From assembly GCF_014651635.1 (NCBI RefSeq), contig NZ_BMXG01000003.1, positions 62,001 through 126,000 on the forward strand: DNA of 64,000 bases, read 5' to 3'. Each line of letters begins with the position of its first letter. Within the stretch, counting starts at the first letter, position 1. Under the pieces are notes generated by a model. That model saw only the letters and a list, made by a program, of their open reading frames with translations, was not told the origin of the DNA and ran no database searches. Shown here piece by piece: positions 9,842-22,255 of this stretch. The position numbers were made by a program, and so were the translations under genes. This stretch comes from Cerasicoccus arenae. GTDB taxonomy: Bacteria; Verrucomicrobiota; Verrucomicrobiia; Opitutales; Cerasicoccaceae.

Positions 9842-9894
9842 TGACAATATCCTGACAGGTTCATGACAATCCCTCCTGTGGTATAATGTATAAT
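9842..9894 (+). promoter_or_regulatory. Direct-repeat promoter upstream of the ECF sigma operon
   Basis: Three half-sites TGACAAT (9842), TGACAGG (9853) and TGACAAT (9864) repeat with an exact 11-bp period, followed by two overlapping -10 hexamers TATAAT (9882-9887 and 9889-9894). Eleven-bp direct repeats are the hallmark of PhoB/OmpR-type response-regulator sites; read on the minus strand the half-site is (A/C)(T/C)TGTCA, close to the enterobacterial Pho box. No good -35 is present, which fits an activator-dependent promoter. The rest of 9717-10040 holds only the hairpin described next. Confidence 0.6.
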
Positions 9895-9937
9895 CGCGCC
9901 AAAATCCAAGTTAACGGCCCGGCGCGAAAGTTTTTTT
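9894..9937 (+). terminator. Hairpin plus T7 tract just after the ECF promoter (attenuator or small RNA end)
   Basis: TCGCGCC (9894-9900) pairs with GGCGCGA (9921-9927) across a 20-nt loop, then AAG and seven T residues. It begins where the twin TATAAT promoter should start transcription, so it could be an attenuator in the sigma-operon leader or define a very short transcript. It is 178 bp past the porin stop codon, so it could also be a late terminator for that gene. Confidence 0.5.
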
Positions 9938-10040
9938 GGTGATATTTCTAAGGATGTCTTCGCGAGAGTGTCTTAATTTAAAAGGAGTAATTTAAACCAA
10001 TCTTATATGATCCTCTAACGCCCACGCTTTACCCACCTGA

Positions 10041-10577
10041 ATGAAACGCGACCTCGCCAGTGAGCCAGAGCCAAGGCTGAACTTAGGGGACCTCTTCGAT
10101 CAACTCGAAGCGCCTTTATTGCGCTTCGCCTATAAACTCGTGATGAATGCCGAAAACGCACAGGATCTGGTCCAGGAAGCCTTTATTCGCTTGGTTCCCC
10201 ACCAGACCGAAGTGAAGAAACCCCGCGCCTGGCTTTACACAACGGTGCACAATTTGGCAATGAACCAACTCAGGGGCCAAAGCAAGGTCGTCTCCCTGCA
10301 AAGTACTGTTGGCGGCGAGGATACCACCACCCCTGACTCCCAACTGCTTCCCATCGATGTTCTCGAACAACGTGAGCGCATGGGGCAGATCCGCGTTTGT
10401 CTGAAACGCCTGCCAGAGCGCGAGCGGGTGCTGATTCAGCTCAAGTATCATCAAAATTGTTCTTATCGGGAAATCGCTCAGCAAATGGGCATAACCGTGA
10501 GTAATGTCGGTTACTCGCTGCATCACGCGCTGAAGTCGTTGGAAATCGAACTGCGCCAGGAGGGCATCGCATCATGA
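10041..10577 (+). CDS. ECF-type RNA polymerase sigma factor
   Basis: A 178-residue sigma-70 family protein with only regions 2 and 4. Sigma2 is LEAPLLRFAYKLVMNAENAQDLVQEAFIRL (two runs around residue 30-55); sigma4 ends LIQLKYHQNCSYREIAQQM and GITVSNVGYSLHHALKSLE, the -35 recognition helix-turn-helix. It is the first gene of a three-gene set, and the next gene starts within its last codons (ATGA, 4-bp overlap). That gene's N-terminus looks like an anti-sigma domain, so this factor is probably held at the membrane until a signal is sensed. Confidence 0.93.
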   Translation: MKRDLASEPEPRLNLGDLFDQLEAPLLRFAYKLVMNAENAQDLVQEAFIRLVPHQTEVKKPRAWLYTTVHNLAMNQLRGQSKVVSLQSTVGGEDTTTPDSQLLPIDVLEQRERMGQIRVCLKRLPERERVLIQLKYHQNCSYREIAQQMGITVSNVGYSLHHALKSLEIELRQEGIAS

Positions 10578-13297
10578 GCGACCAAAAACCGTTACGCGAG
10601 GAACTCGAAAGCCGGATCATCGCCCAGCTCAGCGGTGAGCTTACCTCCGCTGAAAGCGAGGAACTGGAGGCAGTTGTCGCCCACGATACCGAACTTCAAC
10701 AGTTTCGCGAACGTATGCGCAGCCTGATTGGAAGCATTGGCGAGGAAGCGGAATTTTTTGAACTGTCAGACGAAAATGAGGCTAATGCACCGAGCCGTCT
10801 AAGCAAAGAACGCCGGGCGCATGTACACGCTTTGATTTCGGAAAATGAACCAGCAGAAAGCAAAAAGAGACGCAGCCTTCGATTCCATTCACCGATTGTT
10901 CGAGAAGAATGGAACGCGCGACGTTTGCTGACTCACGCCGCTGTCTTGATCGTCTTGATCGGGATTCTCGCGGCTATCCTCATTCCCACTGTTGGCGGTG
11001 CCCGTAAATCAGCCCATCGAGCTGCGGAAGAAGCGGAACAAATTTACTTTTCGATGGATTCCGAAACTGAGCGTCCGTCTGCCCCGGCTTTGAGAATGCC
11101 GCCTAAGGCTTCAACACCGCCATCCCCTCGAGAGGATAACAAGCCAGGCGGGGCCTTAAATCAATTCAAGGACTACAACGCCCTATTCCAAAACGATGAG
11201 ATTGTAACGCCACAGTCGGGGCCTACACGTCAGTTGGCAGGCAAAGAAACAGAAGCTTCAGCTATCGGTGGTTTCAAACCTGAAGGTCAAGGTCAGTCCG
11301 TCGCGTCCAGTGCTTCTGAGGTGCGCGATGGCTTTATCGGTAACCTTAACAGATCTGGTAGATTCGATTATGAAACGGAATATGTATATCGTAGCAAAGG
11401 CCTCGTTACTGATAAGCTTTCACCGTCTGCGGAAATCGAGTTAGGCTACATAGCAGATGATAAATCGCTGAACGGCGTGTTTTTCGGGGACCGGACTGAT
11501 GGTGATGCTTTAATAGCGGGCAATCAGGATTACCTAATTTCTGAAGCCAAGCCTGCCGAACAACCCGCACGGGGTTGGAGTGGCGAAAAATTGGCCGAAA
11601 AAGATGCACATGTCTCCAGCGGGTTAGCATTAGCCAAAGAATCCACCTATGGATTGTACGCAGATTCTACCGAAAAAAAGCGCGATGGTTACGACTATTA
11701 TTCCCCTAAGGATTCCAGTTCCGCTTCCACGCTCAACGATATGGCAAGCGCACCAACCGTTACCACAGCGCCAGCAGCTCCACGAACAATACCAGCGCCG
11801 GTGCTCACGGGAACGCTCGTTCTGGAAGAATCGGAACCTAAGAAGCAAAAAATCGGTGCTGACCAATCGATACTAGTCGCTGGTGAGGCAATGAAACTTC
11901 TCGAAAACACTAAACGGCGCAATAGAGTCATTCCAAGCCGCACCAGCGTACAAACGGGGGTACCTCTGCCGGAGAAAACTGCTGTCGATGCCCCCTTCTC
12001 TACCTTCTCGCTGAACGTCAGCGATGTATCCTTCCGCCTCGCAGAAGCAGCGCTGGAAAGACACACCTTGCCATCTGCCAGCGAAATTCGTGCGGAGGAA
12101 TTCATCAATGCGCTTCCTCCCGAGATGCCTACCACCGCTGCTGCTCAGGATGTTCGCTTTGACTGGGAACTGTCGGACTATCCTTTTGCCCATAACCGAC
12201 AGTTGCTGCGCTTCGCGGTGCAAGCGGCCTCCACGGGGCGCCTGCCATCGCAGCCCGCAAACCTCGTGCTCGTCGTGGATTGCTCCGGCTCGATGCAGCG
12301 CACTGACCGACAGGAGATATTGCGCGATTCCTTGTCAGCACTCGCGGAGAAACTGGGGCCACAGGACCGGCTCAGCGCCGTGGTTTTTGCGAGCACCGCT
12401 CGAGTGGTTGCAGATGGCACCAATGGAGCGGCGGTGGCCGATGTCATTAACCGCATCCTGACGCAGCGCCCCGAAGGCGGCACCAATCTGGAATTGGCCT
12501 TACAAGAAGCTTACGCACTGGCTCAGCGGAATCAGGTCGCTGGCGGGATCAACCGCGTGGTGCTGCTAACGGATGGCGCGGCCAACCTAGGAGAAGTCAA
12601 CGCCAACGCCCTCAACAAACTCGTCACAACCAACCGCCAACGCGACATTGCCTTGGACGCCTTTGGCATCGGTTGGGATGGCTACAACGACACCCTACTC
12701 GAAGCGCTCACCCGCAACAGCAACGGGCGTTACGCGTTTCTGAATTCCCCGGAATCCGCAGGGGAAGAATTTGCGAACAAGCTCGTCGGCGCGCTCAATC
12801 TTGCCGCCGCTGACGTCAAGGTGCAGATCGAATGGAACCCAAGCCGCGTGATCAGCTATCGGCAACTCGGCTACGAAAAGCATCAGCTCAAGACGGAAGA
12901 TTTTCGCAATAATGCGGTCGACGCCGCTGAGCTTTCCGCCGCCGAAGCAGGCCAAGCGCTCTATGTCGTGCAGCTGCGACCCGACGCTATTGGCGGCCTT
13001 GGCACGCTACGCGTTCGCTATTTGGACCCGCATTCCGGCCAGTATGAGGAGCTTGCCTGGCCGCTCGAATACCCCGCAAATATCACCGCGCTGGAAACCG
13101 CATCGGCCTCACATCGTTTGGCCACAGCGGGTGCCCTGCTCGCGGACAAACTTGCCCAAACGCCGAACGCTGAAGCCTACGAGCTACGCGAAGTCGAAGC
13201 CTTAACTGCCAATCTGCCACCCAGCTACAGTCAGAACAACGTAACCCAGCGGCTGCGCACAATGATACGCCAAGCCCGTCAAATCCTTTCGGAATAA
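10574..13297 (+). CDS. Membrane-anchored anti-sigma-like / von Willebrand factor A protein (YfbK-like)
   Basis: A 907-residue protein. Residues 1-55 (IIAQLSGELTSAESEELEAV) resemble the cytoplasmic N-terminus of anti-sigma factors but lack zinc-finger cysteines. One transmembrane helix at about 119-140 has a sequence (GILAAILIPTVGGARKSA) strikingly like a type IV pseudopilin N-terminal helix. A long Ser/Pro-rich linker follows, then the domain preceding VWA in YfbK-type proteins (about 475-560; NVSDVSFRLAEAAL), a VWA domain with MIDAS DCSGS (Asp569, Ser571, Ser573), GGTNLE and LLTDGAAN, and a DUF3520-like C-terminus. It likely senses or assembles extracytoplasmic partners and controls the sigma factor; the latter is inferred from gene order. 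Confidence 0.85.
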   Translation: MSDQKPLREELESRIIAQLSGELTSAESEELEAVVAHDTELQQFRERMRSLIGSIGEEAEFFELSDENEANAPSRLSKERRAHVHALISENEPAESKKRRSLRFHSPIVREEWNARRLLTHAAVLIVLIGILAAILIPTVGGARKSAHRAAEEAEQIYFSMDSETERPSAPALRMPPKASTPPSPREDNKPGGALNQFKDYNALFQNDEIVTPQSGPTRQLAGKETEASAIGGFKPEGQGQSVASSASEVRDGFIGNLNRSGRFDYETEYVYRSKGLVTDKLSPSAEIELGYIADDKSLNGVFFGDRTDGDALIAGNQDYLISEAKPAEQPARGWSGEKLAEKDAHVSSGLALAKESTYGLYADSTEKKRDGYDYYSPKDSSSASTLNDMASAPTVTTAPAAPRTIPAPVLTGTLVLEESEPKKQKIGADQSILVAGEAMKLLENTKRRNRVIPSRTSVQTGVPLPEKTAVDAPFSTFSLNVSDVSFRLAEAALERHTLPSASEIRAEEFINALPPEMPTTAAAQDVRFDWELSDYPFAHNRQLLRFAVQAASTGRLPSQPANLVLVVDCSGSMQRTDRQEILRDSLSALAEKLGPQDRLSAVVFASTARVVADGTNGAAVADVINRILTQRPEGGTNLELALQEAYALAQRNQVAGGINRVVLLTDGAANLGEVNANALNKLVTTNRQRDIALDAFGIGWDGYNDTLLEALTRNSNGRYAFLNSPESAGEEFANKLVGALNLAAADVKVQIEWNPSRVISYRQLGYEKHQLKTEDFRNNAVDAAELSAAEAGQALYVVQLRPDAIGGLGTLRVRYLDPHSGQYEELAWPLEYPANITALETASASHRLATAGALLADKLAQTPNAEAYELREVEALTANLPPSYSQNNVTQRLRTMIRQARQILSE

Positions 13298-13320
13298 ACA
13301 ACTAGAGCCAAAGACCTGCC

Positions 13321-16300
13321 ATGAGAACACGCACACTCGTTTATCGTATATTTTCATTAATATACTTAATAATTAACGTTAATATCGCTCACGCCGCGCA
13401 GGCGAATGACTTCCCCATCGAGTCCATGGCAATCAATGGTGAAGCCAAAGACGGACAAGGCGTCTTGCAGTTCATCGCACGCTTACTCCCCCCCCCCGGT
13501 AGCGAAGATAAGCAGCCAATTATTTACACCTTTTCGATGGACTCCAACGTCACCGTCGAAGCTGATCGGCTTACGCAGATCACGGAGTTCCGCGCCGACG
13601 TAAAAAGCGGCAAGCTCGAAGAACTCGTCATCGACGTGGCGGGCAACGCCGAGCTTCTCGATGTGACCGGTGATGGAATCGAAAGCTGGAGCCAGCGCCA
13701 GTTAGCCAACAGCTCAAGCAGGCAACTCGTCATCAAGCTCAAGGAGCCAATGAAGTCTGGCGGAATTCCCTTCAAGGTCACCCATGAGCAGCGCTGGGAA
13801 AAGCTTCCGGCTACAGCGTCACCGATTGCCTTTAACCTAGCCGACCCTGGTCTCCTGCATGGGCAACTAAGCGTGAAGCCCAGTGCAAACGTCAGCCTCC
13901 GCGACTGGCAAAGCTCTGGCCTCAAAACTATCGATTCAAATTCGGAAAAGCCCGAGCAAGGGCGGGACTTTATCACTGATGGCCAAACGTATTCGCTAAC
14001 ATTCACCGTGGCACCGCCCACGAATTCGCCAAGCCGCCTCATTGATTTTCAACTCACGGGACAGTGGCAGCCAAACGCTATTGAGTTCAAGCTGACTGGA
14101 GAAATAGTCGTCGACGATCCCGATGGTGCCGATCTGCTGCTGCTATCCGGCGATGCCGCCTTTACCAAGTTACCCAATATTGATGCCACCGAAATTGTTT
14201 ATCGCAATGGCGCGTACCGATTCGTCTCAAAGAAGGCTGGACGTTTCCCCATCGATAGCAACTTCGTGGCCAGTGTAAACAAACAACCCGGCAAGCGATC
14301 CGTGAAGTTTGGCCTAGCATCCAGCGCCTTGCGGCCCGTTCGACTGCTTGACATGCCCGCATCGCCTCAGCGCGTCGAACTCGGCAGCGCGCCCGTTGAG
14401 GCCAAGGACAATGCCTACCTCGGCTATCTGCCACCTACGGGGGCATTCAATCTCCAATGGACTGACCCCGCCTGGCAGGACGATCCAGCAGATCAGGCCA
14501 AGTTATTTTTCACCGCAGAAAACGTGATCGACACCGTCTTGAGCGTTGGGCTTCTACGCCAATCGCAAACGGTTAAAATCAACGTCCTGCAGGGCGCGAT
14601 GTCGTCCCTCAAGCTATGGCTCGATGGCGATGGCGAGATAACCAGCGTCACCGGGCCAGCGGTATTAAACTGGGAGATCGGGCAGCCCGAGCCACAGCAT
14701 TCCGGGCAACGCGCCATCACCATTCGCTTCAACCGTCCGCAAACCGAAACAACGCAAGTTGAAGTCGCCCTGCAAACTGCCTTGGGCGAGTTTCCATTTA
14801 CCGTGGCCCCAGCCCGGTTGACCGTCGACGAAGCGATACGCACCGGCGGTTTCTGGAGTTTGCGCAACGCTGGTGCCGTCGAGCTGTCACCTCAGTCGGT
14901 GCAGAACCTCGCCCAGATCGCCCCGGAATTCCTCCCCCCCTCCCCCCAGCGAGAATCTGCCAAACAGGTCCTCGCCTATCGTTTTGCCGGTAACCAATAC
15001 AGCTTGGGTTTGCTCGTGGACAATATCCTTCCAGAAATCGCCGTGTCAGAAATACTGCTTTATCGACTGGAAGAAAACGACCAAAGCATCAGCGCCGAGT
15101 TCGAGTGCGACATTCGCCGGGCACCCGTGCGCGATTTCCATATTTCACTGCCAGCTGGCTACTCGCTGGCGCAAGTCGACGCTCCAGCCTTAGCCGATTA
15201 TTTCGTGGCGGACGAAGTGCAAGGCCAGAGCGAACTGCGCCTCGTTTTCAGTCAACCGCTTGAGGGAAAACGTGTCATCCGCCTACAGCTTGAGCGTAAT
15301 GATCCACTACCGGAAACAGGCTGGGCGTTGCCCTATCTCGCACCCTTGGGCGTCAAGAGTGTGCGGGGTCACATCGGCGTGGCGGCGGGACCCGGCTTAC
15401 GCCTGTCAGTCGATAACTTGACGGGCCTTGCCGAACAAGTGACCACTTATTTCCCGCAACGCATTAACGACCTGCGGCTCGCCTTACGCTTGCGGCAGCC
15501 AGATTGGTCCGGCCAACTCGGCATCGAAAAACTCAGCCAAAGCGTGCAAGCAGAATCCCTGCACTTGATCACGTTGGCAGAGGGCGCGCTCTACGGCAGC
15601 ACGGTTATCAACTACGCCATTGGTGATGCCCCAGTGGAGTCCTTTCGCATCCGTATTCCCGCCGAATATCAAAACATAAATTTCTCTGGGCCAAATGTCC
15701 GGTCGTGGAAAGTGCTGGAAAACAACGAGTATCTCATCGACCTGCAACGCGCCCAAACCGGGCCCTACACGCTCCTCGTCACCTTCGAATCCAAGTTCAC
15801 CCCGCAAGGCGCACGGTTGAGTTTTGGTGGCGTAGAGCCGCTCGGCGTAGAATCCGAACAAGGCTATGTGGTGGTTACCAGCGATTTCCCCTTCGACATC
15901 TCGTCGATTGAACAATCAACCGGCTTGCTCATGTTGGAACCCAACGAAATCCCGGCGGAGTTCCGGCTGCTTTACGAATCGCAAGTCCTCGCCGCATATC
16001 AGTACACCCGCCGGCCTTTTACATTGAGCTTCGAAGTGGCACCTTTCCAACAAGGCCAAACGGTCAACCAAGTCGTCGACTACACTGAGCTGAGCACTCA
16101 AGTTTCCGGCGACGGCGAACTGCTAACCACCGCGGTTTATCAACTAAAGTCCAAGGGACATCCGCATTTCCGAATGACGCTACCAGCCAACTCAAAATTG
16201 TGGAATGTCACCGTGGCCGATCAAAAAGTCACCCCCGCCGCTGATGGCGAGGCGATTCTGATTCCACTACCAGCCGGGCGAGAAGCCGACACTCCGATTC

Positions 16301-19300
16301 CCGTTCGCTTGCAATGGGCATCCCGCGCCGCCGATCCCCAGTATCTAAAACTCGTGGCACCCAACCTAACCACTCCCGCTCTCATGGTAAACTGGTCAGT
16401 CAGTGTAGATCCTGGTTTCAGTTTGCGCTTTGAGGGTGGCGATCTTCAACCCAGCCAAGTCATCCAGCCAACCGGCGCGTGGTCATGGTTTCGCGATATT
16501 CTGTTCGGCGATTCTTGGCTGGTCAAAATTGGCGCTCTAGCGTGTGTCATGTTCCTCATCACGGGCGTCATTTGCCTGACCAGATTCAAGCAACACAATA
16601 AGCGAACGCTGCTACTCAAGTTTTGCGCAACACTCGCGATTGTGATGGCAATAGTGGGGGGGGTAATTCTCTTGATGACGTATTCGGGAGAGGTTACACA
16701 TGTGTCCACGCTGGACTTTACAACACCGCTGGAGCAATCAAGTACTCCGATGACGATCAGCATCAGCAATCGGCCCGTAGACGATCACGGTGGTAATCCA
16801 ATTGGCTGGATCGGCCTCGGAATCAGCGTGCTCGCACTCGGATTCTGTACTTGGCGCAACCGCGCCGAGTCGGCGATTCCGCTACTCGAAATTGGGGCTT
16901 GGCTGCTCATGCTTTGGAGCGCGCTGCATCTAAGCGCCTCACCGATTTTCTTTGGACTGGTCATCCTCGCCGTCATGGTTCGCTACCTGTATGTTCCGGC
17001 GCGCTCCATGTCCAGAGCGACGGCTGCCGTGACTATCATTACGCTCGCGCTTTTGGGCTTTGCCTCGCCACAAACGATTGAAGCCAAAAGTATTGCGCCG
17101 CCCGTCGAGCTAACGGTTGTCGCGGAAGCAAGCCAGCGCATCGCAGTGGAAAACGATGTAGCCAACGTCAGCGCCACGCTTGTATGGGACGCCGCTGACG
17201 ATGCCACGATTCCGCTGCTATCACACCCAGCTGTCCTGCAAGATATCGACCTGCCAGCAAACATTGAGCTGCGTCTCGATAAGGCAAACAATGCGGAGCT
17301 TTTTGCCAACAAGGCCGGGCGCTACACATTAATTTTGTCATACAGAGTCCCCGTCATCCAACAAGGCAACGAGCGATACATCGAGCTGCCATTGACCCCA
17401 GCGCTGACGAGTCGCGGCACCTTCTCCTTTCCTGGAAAAAATGTTGTGGTCGAATGCAAGGAGGCGGTCTCCTTTACTACGGACACACAGGGCGACCAAA
17501 CGCAGACCAAGCTGGTTTTCCGTCCATCGCCCAAAGTTACGCTGCGCTGGTCGCCGGAAACCCGGGATGTGAGCAAGGAAGAGCGGGTTTACTTTGCCGA
17601 GAGCTACGAAGTTTATCAGCCCATGGCGGGGATCGTCGAGGGCTCCCACCAGATCGAAGTGCGCCCCGCTCAAGGTGTGATCGAGCAGTTGACCATTGCC
17701 ACGCCCGATGCGCTAACCATTACCTCCGTCGACAGCAAGAACCTCAACAACTGGCGCTTTGACCCGGAAAAGCAAGTGGTGGAATTGTTCTTTCAGCCCG
17801 GGCATTCGTCTAACTTCAATGTCGCCATTCGCTCGCAGTACACCAGCCAGTCCCTACCCTACCAACAAGCTGTGCGACCACTTTCCTTGCCTGAGGCAAG
17901 CAGTCAGATTTCACTCGTCGCACTGGCCACGGACTCGGAAGTCCACATCGGAGAAATCAACCTGAAGCAGAATTCCGCAATCAATCTGGAAGACTTCCCG
18001 CTCAGCGCCTTGGAACTGCTAAAGCACCCCGGCAATACGCCGGTGATCCGCCGGGCCTACCGCTGGGGGGGGGGGGCAGAATCGCAATTGAAATTTGAAG
18101 CACTGGCGGTTAAGCCCGACACCCGCGTCAAGAGCGAGAGCCGCATCTCCTATGGCGAAGACCGCACGCTGTTAAACGCCGTGCTCAACATCGAAGTGAA
18201 TCGTGCGGGCGTGTTCCAGCTCAGCTTTGATGTGCCGGAAAACTTTGATATCGAATCGATCAGCAGCCCCTTCCTTAGCCACTGGAGCGAAAGCACAAGC
18301 GAAGATGCCGGACGAGTCGTCACGATGCAGCTCAAACAAAAACTCCTCGGCAACACCCAATGCACAATCACGCTTTCCGGCCCCGGCTTGGCTGGCCAAA
18401 GCGAAGTTACTGCACCACGAATCCTATTGCGGGAGGCCAATCGCCAATCCGGCACGGTGCTGTTTTCCACTGAGCTAGGGTATCGCCTGACGCCCACCGT
18501 GCGTAGCATGGTGACTCAACTCGACCCTAAGGACTATGGCGTCCGCGACGCCCAGGCGCAGTTTTTCCGCTACTTGAGCGAGAAGTCCGAGCTGCAATTT
18601 AAAGTCGATGTCATCCCGCCATGGATCGAGGCATCGCAACATCAGGCTGTGTCTTTTCGTTCGGGCATGATCGAGAATCATGTGCGCATCGAGCTCTCCG
18701 TGGAGAACGCGGGCGTCCGTAAGTTAACCGTTAAAATGCCCACCGACAGCCTCGGCGTGCGCTTCAATGGTGAAGCCGTGGATCGCTTCGAGCCCGTGGA
18801 AGGCCAGGCTGGGCAGTGGGCCGTCTATCTCGATCGCAAGCGAATCGGCAAATTCATGATCAACGTCGAGTATCAACGCTCCACCCCTCAACAACCAGAG
18901 AATGAGACCATCACTGGTTTCCAACTGATGGGCATTGATCAACAGTCCGGTGCCCTGTCGCTCACAGCCCAGGGGCGGCTGGAATTAAAAATCCCCCAGA
19001 TTCCAGAGTCCCTGCAAGATGCTGAGAGCCAGATGATTCCAGCCAAGTTACGGTTCCCAGTCAGCGAGCAAGGGGTCGCACAGGTCTTCCGCGTGCTCAG
19101 TCCCGATTTTTCGTTACCAGTAGAGCTCATTCGCCGCGAATCCGCCGACACCCTTCCCGCCCAAGTCCATGGCGCACAGCTGCTCACCGTGATCAGCGAC
19201 AGCGGCGCGGCGCTTACACGGATGCGGATCAATCTCGACCCCGGTTCCAAGCGTTTGCTGCGGCTGAAGCTCCCGCCTCAAAGCGAATTCTGGTACGCAT

Positions 19301-20220
19301 TTGTGAATCATCAGAGCGCTTGGCCTTGGCGTGAGGGCGACGACCTGATCTTGCAGTTGGAGGCCAGTGCCGTGGACCCCGAATCCTCGCAAGTCGAGTT
19401 TTTCTATTCCAGCAAGCTTCCAGTTTCAGGGAGACGCTTGAACCAAAATCTCGTCGGGCCGCGCGTCGACTTGCCGATGGAGGCCATCGAATGGGAAGTC
19501 TATTATCCAGACTCCTGGAGCGTTAATGAATGGGCGGGTAACATGACCCAAGAGGCAACAGAGACGCCCAGCAGCGAACTATTTTCTCTGATCTCCTACA
19601 CCGAAAGAAGCCGCAAATCCACGGACGAGAAAACCGAGGAAGCCAAGTCCATGCTCGCCGCCGGCAACGTGTTGCTGGAATCGGGTCGCCAAGAAGACGC
19701 CCGCCGCGCCTTTGAGGGTGCCTATAAGCTATCCAGCAACGACGCCGCCTTCAACGAAGACGCCCGCGTCCAGTTGCAAACCCTGCGCGAGCAACAGGCC
19801 GTGGTTGGTCTTTCCCAACGGCGCAATGTCTGGTCCGACAGTCAGATGGAGTCGCAAAGCGCCGCACAAAGCAAAGTGGACATCATGAACTATCGCCAGA
19901 AAGACGCCCAACAACTGCTCCAAGCCAACAGCATTGATGACAACGCGGCTCTGCGCGAAGTCGCTCAGGAACTGCTGCAACAGCAGGAAGCCGCCCTCAT
20001 CCGACCACAGGCGCTACTGACCACCATTCCCGAACAAGGTAAATCGGCTCGCTTTCTTCGCTCCTTGCAGGTCGACGATCAAGCCGATTTGCTGATCAGC
20101 TTTTCCGGGCATCGCCAACAGTTTGGCCAATTCTGGACCAACCTGGGTGCTTTTGCCGCCTTGGTGTTCTTCGTGTTCCTCCTCGCTGGAGCCAATCGCC
20201 TGATGCGGAGAAACGCATAA
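13321..20220 (+). CDS. Giant (2299 aa) membrane protein with internal duplication, ECF/VWA cluster
   Basis: The signal peptide is at 1-26 (LVYRIFSLIYLIINVNIAHA). A long beta-rich exported region follows to about 1055. Transmembrane helices cluster at about 1060-1120 and 1160-1247, a second beta-rich region spans 1250-2090, a TPR-like helical stretch lies near 2100-2150, and a final helix sits at 2272-2293 followed by RRNA. Residues about 241-520 and 1260-1530 look like copies: both carry KAGR(F/Y), an (L/V)xLxW..P strand, then F.AE and an IT.V..LNW/NNW segment in the same order. The gene starts 23 bp after the VWA gene, so one operon is likely. No enzymatic motif is visible. In-frame C10 (13488-13497) and G12 (18065-18076) tracts occur. 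Function unknown; a cell-envelope role is probable. Confidence 0.85.
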   Translation: MRTRTLVYRIFSLIYLIINVNIAHAAQANDFPIESMAINGEAKDGQGVLQFIARLLPPPGSEDKQPIIYTFSMDSNVTVEADRLTQITEFRADVKSGKLEELVIDVAGNAELLDVTGDGIESWSQRQLANSSSRQLVIKLKEPMKSGGIPFKVTHEQRWEKLPATASPIAFNLADPGLLHGQLSVKPSANVSLRDWQSSGLKTIDSNSEKPEQGRDFITDGQTYSLTFTVAPPTNSPSRLIDFQLTGQWQPNAIEFKLTGEIVVDDPDGADLLLLSGDAAFTKLPNIDATEIVYRNGAYRFVSKKAGRFPIDSNFVASVNKQPGKRSVKFGLASSALRPVRLLDMPASPQRVELGSAPVEAKDNAYLGYLPPTGAFNLQWTDPAWQDDPADQAKLFFTAENVIDTVLSVGLLRQSQTVKINVLQGAMSSLKLWLDGDGEITSVTGPAVLNWEIGQPEPQHSGQRAITIRFNRPQTETTQVEVALQTALGEFPFTVAPARLTVDEAIRTGGFWSLRNAGAVELSPQSVQNLAQIAPEFLPPSPQRESAKQVLAYRFAGNQYSLGLLVDNILPEIAVSEILLYRLEENDQSISAEFECDIRRAPVRDFHISLPAGYSLAQVDAPALADYFVADEVQGQSELRLVFSQPLEGKRVIRLQLERNDPLPETGWALPYLAPLGVKSVRGHIGVAAGPGLRLSVDNLTGLAEQVTTYFPQRINDLRLALRLRQPDWSGQLGIEKLSQSVQAESLHLITLAEGALYGSTVINYAIGDAPVESFRIRIPAEYQNINFSGPNVRSWKVLENNEYLIDLQRAQTGPYTLLVTFESKFTPQGARLSFGGVEPLGVESEQGYVVVTSDFPFDISSIEQSTGLLMLEPNEIPAEFRLLYESQVLAAYQYTRRPFTLSFEVAPFQQGQTVNQVVDYTELSTQVSGDGELLTTAVYQLKSKGHPHFRMTLPANSKLWNVTVADQKVTPAADGEAILIPLPAGREADTPIPVRLQWASRAADPQYLKLVAPNLTTPALMVNWSVSVDPGFSLRFEGGDLQPSQVIQPTGAWSWFRDILFGDSWLVKIGALACVMFLITGVICLTRFKQHNKRTLLLKFCATLAIVMAIVGGVILLMTYSGEVTHVSTLDFTTPLEQSSTPMTISISNRPVDDHGGNPIGWIGLGISVLALGFCTWRNRAESAIPLLEIGAWLLMLWSALHLSASPIFFGLVILAVMVRYLYVPARSMSRATAAVTIITLALLGFASPQTIEAKSIAPPVELTVVAEASQRIAVENDVANVSATLVWDAADDATIPLLSHPAVLQDIDLPANIELRLDKANNAELFANKAGRYTLILSYRVPVIQQGNERYIELPLTPALTSRGTFSFPGKNVVVECKEAVSFTTDTQGDQTQTKLVFRPSPKVTLRWSPETRDVSKEERVYFAESYEVYQPMAGIVEGSHQIEVRPAQGVIEQLTIATPDALTITSVDSKNLNNWRFDPEKQVVELFFQPGHSSNFNVAIRSQYTSQSLPYQQAVRPLSLPEASSQISLVALATDSEVHIGEINLKQNSAINLEDFPLSALELLKHPGNTPVIRRAYRWGGGAESQLKFEALAVKPDTRVKSESRISYGEDRTLLNAVLNIEVNRAGVFQLSFDVPENFDIESISSPFLSHWSESTSEDAGRVVTMQLKQKLLGNTQCTITLSGPGLAGQSEVTAPRILLREANRQSGTVLFSTELGYRLTPTVRSMVTQLDPKDYGVRDAQAQFFRYLSEKSELQFKVDVIPPWIEASQHQAVSFRSGMIENHVRIELSVENAGVRKLTVKMPTDSLGVRFNGEAVDRFEPVEGQAGQWAVYLDRKRIGKFMINVEYQRSTPQQPENETITGFQLMGIDQQSGALSLTAQGRLELKIPQIPESLQDAESQMIPAKLRFPVSEQGVAQVFRVLSPDFSLPVELIRRESADTLPAQVHGAQLLTVISDSGAALTRMRINLDPGSKRLLRLKLPPQSEFWYAFVNHQSAWPWREGDDLILQLEASAVDPESSQVEFFYSSKLPVSGRRLNQNLVGPRVDLPMEAIEWEVYYPDSWSVNEWAGNMTQEATETPSSELFSLISYTERSRKSTDEKTEEAKSMLAAGNVLLESGRQEDARRAFEGAYKLSSNDAAFNEDARVQLQTLREQQAVVGLSQRRNVWSDSQMESQSAAQSKVDIMNYRQKDAQQLLQANSIDDNAALREVAQELLQQQEAALIRPQALLTTIPEQGKSARFLRSLQVDDQADLLISFSGHRQQFGQFWTNLGAFAALVFFVFLLAGANRLMRRNA

Positions 20221-20239: not shown

Positions 20240-22255
20240 TTAGAAAAGCACCGGAGGGGGGGGGGCTAGGCCAACGAAAATCACGATGCCATCTCCGCCT
20301 GGATTGTCACCTGCGTTGTCGATGTCGAAGTCGGGCTTCCAGTTGTTGACCGTCCAGATGTTGCCCGCGGCGTCAATCTGGAGGCTCGTCTGGCGCATGA
20401 GCGGCGAGAAGCTGGGTGGGCCATCGGGGCCATAAAGTGGTTCATTGTTGGCTAGTAACACTTGGTCACCCGCGGAAGGCACGGTGAACCCGGTGTCAGG
20501 CGACAAAGGATCACCTAGCGTTTTACGGCGTGGCCAAGAATCTGGATTGGCCCCACAAATCTTGCTAATACCACCGTCGGTAAAGTTGCTTCCGCTTTCG
20601 AGCGGGCCAAAATTCGAGATCCAGACATTGTCTTCGCCGTCAATAGCCAATCCCCATGGGCCATTAATTCCGCCGCCCGAGAAAGCGCCTAGCACAACGC
20701 CTTCGGGGCTGATGCAATAAACAGTATCATTGCCTTGAGAGGCCAACCAGGCGTTACCTTGAGAGTCAGAGACAACAACCTTCAGCGTGTCACCAATTGG
20801 TAACAAAATCGTTTGCTCCAGTTCGCCAAAGGCATTCAGTTTAACTTTGGCCAAGCTGCTGGTAAACTGGCCGTCCAACCCGCCGGAATCGGCAACCCAT
20901 GCGCTGCCGTCAGGGTTAATCGACAGGCCAAAGGGCCGGCTGCCATTGTATTGCTTGAGGCTCACGGCATTATCCGGATCGCCGTCTTTAAAGACCACAA
21001 CACTGTCGTTCTCGAAACTGGAGACCCAGACATTGCCGTCGGCGTCTATCTCGATGGCCTGTGCCCGCCAAACGCCGCCGAAAAATCCATCTGGATTGGA
21101 AAGGACTTCGCCGTCCTCTGCCTTAACGAGGGAAACACTCCCTGTGCCGTTGCCAATTGGGCTATCGGGGGTTTGAGACGGGTAATAATCGGGTCCGCCC
21201 CAGCCAAAATTAGCGACCCATACTTGGTCTTGCGCATCAATCGCCACGCCCCAGCCGCCGCCGTAAATACCACCACCAGTAATCGGAGAGACCGGGCTGC
21301 CGTTGGTCCCATCAGCCGGTTGGCCATTGGGCTGCAGCACGATGAGGTAGTCACCGGAATTCGGCGAACCCTGAGGCACATTGTTGGGAATCCAAGCGTA
21401 ACCCCAGGCGTCAAAGGCAACATTAGCCGGGCCGCCGAACTGCATAGTGTCGTCATTACCCGAGTGGTTAACCTTCACTGTTACCGTCCAGGCGTCAGGC
21501 ATTTTTTCCAATGCTGGAGTGAAGGCGGGACGAAATTTGGATAAGCGATATAGATGAGAGACATTCTTGCCGGGATCACGGGCGAGATTGGCCAAGGCGA
21601 CCGCGGTGTTTGCGGGCGAAGGCTTGCCGTATTCCTTAGTCGAGCGTATCAACGACGCAGCAATGTAGGGATTGATCGCACAACGGTGCAGCAGGCTCGC
21701 CAAGGAGCGCGTCATGCGAAGCGAATTGGTCTGATCGGCATTCGGAGAATTCAGCAGCACGGGCGAAGATTCCCCCGTTGCTGGCGTCACGATGTTATCA
21801 TTCATCATGGCGGCAATCGTCAGGGCAAAGGGGTCGCCGGAAATTTGGCCTGACCGATAAAATTGAGCCATCGAATAAGACGAAGCCACGGTGGTCAGCT
21901 CGTTGATGGTCGTTTCAGCGGGTAATTCCGGGCCCAAAACCGTAACGAATCTAACACGTGGCCGCAGATCTGCCGTCACAAAGAAAATGCTGTCGGTCGC
22001 ATCAACGTCCGTCTCAATGAGAAACTGCCCGGAGCCGTTGGTCTTCGCACTCCCGCGCTTGATTGGGGCTGCCTCCGTCGCTTCGTAGAGCGTTACATTG
22101 ACGTTTGAGATGAGACGGCTGCTCGTCGCACCGCCTAATTCAAGTGTCCCAGCAAGTTCTGCCGCTTGCGCGACACTCAGACTGCCTGCAAGCAACGGGA
22201 AGATAAATAATCCGGCAAACGTCCGGGCCGTTTTTTGATAAAAAAGCTTCATCAT
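20240..22255 (-). CDS. Secreted NHL/Vgb-like beta-propeller protein
   Basis: A 671-residue protein with a signal peptide (GLFIFPLLAGSLSVAQA). Residues about 35-130 look like a carboxypeptidase-regulatory-like beta domain. From about 250 on, repeats with the pattern D..G..WV(A/S)N(F/S) recur (IDAQDQVWVANFG, IDADGNVWVSSFEN, INPDGSAWVADSGG, DSQGNAWLASQGND, IDGEDNVWISNFG, IDAAGNIWTVNNW), typical of NHL or virginiamycin-B-lyase-like propellers. It is probably periplasmic or surface-bound and acts in binding; no catalytic set is evident. It is convergent with the giant ORF, with 19 bp between stops. A G10 run (20256-20265) encodes the last Pro residues, four codons before the stop. Confidence 0.82.
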   Translation of the reverse strand: MMKLFYQKTARTFAGLFIFPLLAGSLSVAQAAELAGTLELGGATSSRLISNVNVTLYEATEAAPIKRGSAKTNGSGQFLIETDVDATDSIFFVTADLRPRVRFVTVLGPELPAETTINELTTVASSYSMAQFYRSGQISGDPFALTIAAMMNDNIVTPATGESSPVLLNSPNADQTNSLRMTRSLASLLHRCAINPYIAASLIRSTKEYGKPSPANTAVALANLARDPGKNVSHLYRLSKFRPAFTPALEKMPDAWTVTVKVNHSGNDDTMQFGGPANVAFDAWGYAWIPNNVPQGSPNSGDYLIVLQPNGQPADGTNGSPVSPITGGGIYGGGWGVAIDAQDQVWVANFGWGGPDYYPSQTPDSPIGNGTGSVSLVKAEDGEVLSNPDGFFGGVWRAQAIEIDADGNVWVSSFENDSVVVFKDGDPDNAVSLKQYNGSRPFGLSINPDGSAWVADSGGLDGQFTSSLAKVKLNAFGELEQTILLPIGDTLKVVVSDSQGNAWLASQGNDTVYCISPEGVVLGAFSGGGINGPWGLAIDGEDNVWISNFGPLESGSNFTDGGISKICGANPDSWPRRKTLGDPLSPDTGFTVPSAGDQVLLANNEPLYGPDGPPSFSPLMRQTSLQIDAAGNIWTVNNWKPDFDIDNAGDNPGGDGIVIFVGLAPPPPVLF

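Follow-up and report, generated by a model that had tools for sequence, protein, structure and literature searches.

Three genes on the forward strand of the window (the whole 64,000-nucleotide stretch of Cerasicoccus arenae DNA analysed here) raise the question of whether an ECF sigma factor, a membrane protein with a VWA domain and a giant membrane protein together make up a dedicated envelope system. The ORF positions agree with the original prediction that these genes overlap or nearly touch—the sigma and VWA ORFs share 4 bases, and a gap of 23 bp separates the stop of the VWA gene from the start of the giant (Table 1)—and all three fall within the span first assigned to the feature (9842–20220), the beginning of which is better placed at the predicted promoter (9946). 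Our preferred reading, to which we would give a probability of roughly 0.7, is that the cassette is a self-contained, apparently autoregulated sigma/anti-sigma unit for envelope sensing, with a role in surveillance and repair and a mechanism of sigma release as proposed below. A convergent gene (20240–22255), encoding a 671-aa exported NHL-repeat protein, adjoins the cassette; no such neighbour recurs in relatives.

Table 1. Features of the sigma–VWA–giant cassette, in window coordinates.
Feature	Position	Strand	Basis and remarks
Predicted ECF-type promoter, TTCTAAGGA-N13-GTGTCTT	9946..9974	+	66 bp upstream of sigma gene; motif match 16/16
ECF sigma factor, 178 aa (sigma2 + sigma4)	10041..10577	+	Pfam PF04542, PF08281
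Membrane anti-sigma / YfbK-type VWA protein, 907 aa (predicted)	10574..13297	+	ORF list, Pfam, hydropathy
Cytoplasmic anti-sigma domain, zinc-less variant, aa 1-60 (predicted)	10574..10753	+	Profile match to zf-HC2-bearing N-termini
Single TM helix, aa ~119-141	10928..10996	+	Hydropathy peak at aa 122
vWF_A domain PF12450, aa 469-546	11978..12211	+	Pfam
VWA domain, aa 563-725	12260..12748	+	Pfam PF00092, alignment; MIDAS D569-x-S571-x-S573 at 12278-12292
YfbK_C domain PF12034, aa 741-880	12794..13213	+	Pfam, E 3e-25
Giant membrane protein, 2299 aa	13321..20220	+	ORF; N-terminal signal peptide by eye
N-terminal array, five related domains, aa ~243-1048	14047..16464	+	AlphaFold2, VIA-align, hhalign; domains 2-4 saddle-modelled
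Six predicted TM helices between halves	16519..17082	+	Hydropathy; last may resemble a relic signal peptide
C-terminal array, five related domains, aa ~1268-2080	17122..19560	+	AlphaFold2, VIA-align, hhalign; domains 1, 3, 4 saddle-modelled
Helical TPR-like stretch, aa ~2091-2225	19591..19995	+	AlphaFold2, low confidence; weak TPR matches E 0.09-0.26
C-terminal TM helix, aa ~2271-2293	20131..20199	+	Hydropathy

Reading the cassette in the direction of transcription, we see that the first ORF carries the sigma2 and sigma4 regions (Sigma70_r2, E 1e-13; r4_2, E 2e-14) with no sigma3 region by Pfam, and also scores over the cut-off of TIGR02937, confirming its identity as an ECF sigma factor. The predicted promoter ahead of it, composed of the elements TTCTAAGG and GTGTCTT, is an instance of a shared motif (TTCYAAGGA-N13-GTGTCTT; spacing 13) that is perfect or near perfect ahead of the window's sigma gene and those of about a dozen relatives from several families. 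An unsupervised search for word pairs upstream of sigma genes recovers 8 loci, against at most 4 in shuffles; generic GGAAC-type promoter words show no enrichment there and were rejected. Within the window's 4.13-Mb genome the perfect motif has a single copy, before the cassette's sigma gene. Judged from sequence, the motif appears to track this sigma gene, with the promoter itself a prediction. Sigma–VWA pairs that lack a giant have, by eye, a sister motif (TTCTAAGAA then CGT).

The N-terminus of the second protein yields no match in a Pfam search, and its zinc ligand positions are occupied by V34, D38 and L41; in cassette homologues from distant families a canonical zf-HC2 finger occupies the same region (E as low as 4e-11), and hhalign relates a mostly zinc-less set of N-termini, the window protein included, to the zf-HC2 set at E 1e-11, the sets being small and the query set holding giant-free members and two mis-cut rows. 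Zinc ligands are often replaced in such anti-sigma domains, and what defines the class I kind is an ASDI domain at the N-terminus, whether or not it carries the Hx3Cx2C motif (PMC7406223); by homology, as opposed to structure, the window protein is predicted to belong to this class. The anti-sigma-like cytoplasmic N-terminus that had been proposed is thus supported, and hydropathy confirms the one membrane helix. Among relatives' loci a sigma gene stands just upstream of 81 of the 90 VWA ORFs. Three VWA proteins that lack this neighbour start with an export signal: a signal peptide in L054 and L057, which have lost the sigma gene and are nested among sigma-linked VWAs in the tree, and a lipoprotein-like signal in L201. 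The anti-sigma domain and a sigma neighbour thus tend to be present or absent as a pair; VWA orthologues without a sigma-binding region, which the original prediction had named as grounds for its own rejection, are seen where sigma is missing too, and so support the link between domain and sigma. Probably the membrane VWA protein keeps sigma in check by way of a sensor domain on the outer side of the inner membrane. The TM segment (10934–11038) resembles a type IV pseudopilin N-terminus (LIVLIGILAAILIPTVGGARKSAHRA), and over 35 aa it is 54% identical to a further ORF in this genome; the pseudopilin resemblance is not kept in orthologues.

The linker ahead of the VWA domain is long and varies among homologues. 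PF12450, VWA and PF12034 all score over cut-off, placing the protein in the YfbK-type VWA family (COG2304). All of the MIDAS ligands are present (D569, S571, S573, T637 and D667), and in an alignment of 47 giant-linked VWA proteins the DxSxS motif and the Asp are invariant (47/47), the Thr being found in 38/47; the MIDAS first noted at Asp569-x-Ser571-x-Ser573 is hence confirmed. By sequence, the vWF_A-VWA-YfbK_C module is placed in the periplasm and its metal site is intact, with metal binding a prediction.

The giant had been described as duplicated and as having no recognised domain. Duplication is confirmed by the match between its halves (aa 257–1042 against 1282–2075, E 1e-17), which strengthens at profile level. 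The remainder of the description holds for the sequence, with comparisons against Pfam and PDB sequences giving sub-threshold matches only and none that is credible, but not for the fold. AlphaFold2 models the N half with a pLDDT of 80.8 and the C half with 67 overall, rising to about 80 over its first 600 residues, which hold most of the domain array. Single saddle domains from these models align with the N-domains of M1 aminopeptidases (VIA-align Z 11–12.5, rmsd 3–4), and a two-domain stretch with ribophorin I (Z about 15), the high rmsd of the latter (20 or more) arising because the two domains are oriented differently. The well-modelled domains are thus predicted to share the saddle fold seen in ribophorin I (Ost1) and in the N-domains of M1 aminopeptidases, a fold that alone shows no function. 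Likeness ends there: identity is 8–12%, there are ten copies, and Pfam finds neither the ribophorin I family nor the catalytic zinc peptidase domain of M1 aminopeptidases in the giant. Other candidate relatives were rejected; Foldseek matches to integrin alpha legs (TM-score near 0.14, rmsd mostly 20–45) are so poor as to represent generic sandwich chains, matches to calmodulin are due to chance (E above 0.1), and neither DUF4139 nor the VWA core gave a convincing hhalign match to the saddle domains.

Comparison of the giant's domains by hhalign pairs each N domain best with its C partner (E 1e-18 to 1e-30); domains 2, 3 and 4 also match one another (E 1e-14 to 1e-19), and the links of domains 1 and 5 to the rest are weak. 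The six middle TM helices, together with the C-terminal one, would put both arrays outside the inner membrane, each of them anchored. The likeness of the last middle helix to a relic signal peptide suggests that the giant arose by a fused tandem duplication. In a related family (L048, L141–L150) a half-length giant-like gene (~1150 aa) is directly followed by a longer one (~1500–2600 aa). Members of that family have no sigma or VWA gene alongside, and the cassette's promoter motif is absent upstream of the pairs.

Is the order of the three genes conserved? A profile built from five giants finds matches in 84 of 388 sampled Verrucomicrobiota genomes. Neighbouring genes in the fetched loci were labelled with custom HMMs and, after setting aside two duplicates and six loci near a contig end, the 58 core giants leave 50 informative loci; in 44 of these, from many deeply diverged families across the phylum, sigma, VWA and giant follow one another in one direction (43 plainly, and L116 with a second VWA copy in between). 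The tandem VWA genes of L116 come one from each lineage of the VWA tree. The six exceptions are four gut Opitutales genomes (L066–L069), in which the giant is kept with no sigma or VWA gene alongside, L128 and L140. Flanks change from locus to locus, and no further neighbour family recurs beyond local synteny. The gene order is kept phylum-wide, which supports the conserved, operon-like envelope system originally suspected, and we found no description of it in the literature searched; sigma, anti-sigma-VWA and giant apparently form one self-controlled gene set across Verrucomicrobiota. On the VWA tree the giant-linked proteins cluster (4 label changes against 27.7 when shuffled), and one genome (G148) has both the giant-linked and the giant-free kind. 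The window's congeners (G002, G003) have the giant-free kind only and the VWA nearest to the window's own belongs to another family (G215, 56%), from which we infer that loss or transfer has occurred. No giant was found on a plasmid, and the GC content of the cassette does not point to a recent import.

Searching for further targets of the motif, we found no strong second one in the window's genome, where matches at up to three mismatches number 39 for the motif and 39 for the reversed control; no gene is evident behind the best-scoring looser match (L230), and the genome's own alpha-2-macroglobulin gene lacks the motif. Across 15 cassette genomes there are 18 matches at no more than one mismatch, the control giving 3: of the 18, ten lie before cassettes and eight elsewhere, seven of the eight being shortly upstream of a correctly oriented gene. 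These seven genes comprise two alpha-2-macroglobulins, two DUF4139-type proteins or operons, one VIT-VWA protein and two unknowns. A direct check of the families, using a PWM made from related sites (the first two DUF4139 matches belonging to one genus), adds two further DUF4139 genes (scores 19.0 and 12.5) and two further alpha-2-macroglobulin genes (19.6 and 15.2); the motif is carried by 4/22 alpha-2-macroglobulin and 4/8 DUF4139 genes, and none of about 246 background genes scores 10 or more. Motif-bearing alpha-2-macroglobulin, VIT-VWA and DUF4139 genes of Verrucomicrobiota lie at L273, L274, L276, L277 and L278. A regulon of such envelope proteins is accordingly a prediction for the relatives.

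Set against known systems, the cassette is partly familiar. Joining an anti-sigma domain to a VWA domain had been thought non-standard, wrongly: sigma genes paired with N-terminally extended YfbK-type VWA genes are frequent in the phylum without a giant, and pairs of an ECF sigma factor and a YfbK-type VWA protein also occur on Rhizobium and Azotobacter plasmids (L219, L223), there with a different, unrecognised N-terminal domain that gives no match to zf-HC2. The YfbK-type VWA is a known family, and the unit of sigma and anti-sigma-VWA is itself common and wider than first thought; what is new is the giant, the unit of three genes in fixed order and the regulon that is predicted for it, the whole being ECF sigma signalling to which a third, new component is added. 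In the open-licence papers searched we found no description of a VWA-type anti-sigma factor, of such a cassette or of such a giant. YfbK / COG2304 proteins share the PF12450-VWA-PF12034 architecture; PF12034 occurs in E. coli only among 14 control genomes, and enterobacterial YfbK genes, unlike the cassette's, have nuo genes nearby and no adjoining sigma gene.

Like SigW-RsiW and RpoE-RseA, in which an ECF sigma is paired with a class I membrane anti-sigma, the cassette has adjacent or overlapping sigma and anti-sigma genes, a single TM helix, an apparently autoregulated promoter and (in its homologues) a cytoplasmic zf-HC2-type domain at the N-terminus; it departs from them in its large extracytoplasmic vWF_A-VWA-YfbK_C metal-site module and its fixed, giant third gene. 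RsgI-type anti-sigma factors of cellulolytic Clostridia combine a cytoplasmic anti-sigma domain, one TM helix and an exported ligand-binding domain, a plan along which the VWA protein is also built, though with VWA as the exported domain, with three genes, and with no Pfam match to a carbohydrate-binding domain or, in the protein or its homologues' N-termini, to the RsgI N-terminal domain; we do not class it as RsgI-type. FecI-FecR-FecA comprises three genes ordered sigma, membrane anti-sigma and large envelope protein, an order that the cassette matches; it is not of the FecIR type, having no FecR domain (none in the VWA protein by Pfam at E 1), and in place of a TonB-dependent receptor its third protein is a membrane-anchored domain array.

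We propose that the anti-sigma domain of the VWA protein would hold sigma at the membrane until a change in what the MIDAS binds frees it; the simplest partner for the MIDAS would be the giant's domain arrays, or a ligand presented on them. Freed sigma would transcribe its own cassette and, in some relatives, the alpha-2-macroglobulin, DUF4139 and VIT-VWA genes as well. The job of the cassette is likely the surveillance and repair of the envelope. Against this reading stand the frequent sigma–VWA units that lack a giant, the giants of gut Opitutales without sigma or VWA, the lack of a strong second target in the window's genome, whose alpha-2-macroglobulin gene is without the motif, and the presence of the motif at only some alpha-2-macroglobulin and DUF4139 genes. 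It is very improbable that the VWA N-terminus is no anti-sigma domain and its sigma neighbour a coincidence; the absence of a Pfam match in the window's own N-terminus, and of a zf-HC2 match in those from Rhizobium and Azotobacter, would fit such a view, but zf-HC2 in homologous cassettes, the profile similarity and the 81 of 90 upstream sigma genes speak against it. If the sigma/anti-sigma pair were an ordinary one of the ECF type, unusual in its extracytoplasmic domain and simply co-transcribed with an unrelated envelope gene, this would account for the six loci where the giant stands without adjacent sigma and VWA genes; we consider it improbable, given that exactly these three genes have stayed side by side in 44/50 loci, from families that diverged deeply, whilst their flanks change.

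Rather than a part of the sensor, the giant may be an output, a structural or protective envelope protein induced by sigma whilst the VWA domain senses an unrelated ligand. Sigma–VWA units that lack a giant are widespread elsewhere, which shows that a giant is no requirement for the sensor. The other motif-bearing genes of relatives encode envelope proteins, of which the giant would be one more; against this, giant-linked VWAs form lineages of their own, which suggests adaptation to a partner, and the giant lies directly downstream in almost every locus. We rate the output role a serious contender, if somewhat short of an even chance. More speculatively, and on balance unlikely, the giant would be the envelope's sensing antenna, its ten saddle domains read by the MIDAS, such that damage or occupation frees sigma and induces alpha-2-macroglobulin, VIT-VWA and DUF4139 proteins.

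Taken as a sensing unit, the cassette would give the widespread Verrucomicrobiota a phylum-wide signalling unit undescribed in the literature searched, one that ties VWA metal-site recognition to the control of transcription and that adds a promoter motif, target genes open to testing and a new family of giant proteins whose fold is predicted; with alpha-2-macroglobulin genes among the predicted targets, their regulation too becomes testable. Should the giant indeed be an antenna, the cassette would be a bacterial envelope-defence circuit in which metal-site recognition of the integrin kind is joined to a sigma switch, and the induced alpha-2-macroglobulin, VIT-VWA and DUF4139 proteins would be its protease-trap and repair proteins.
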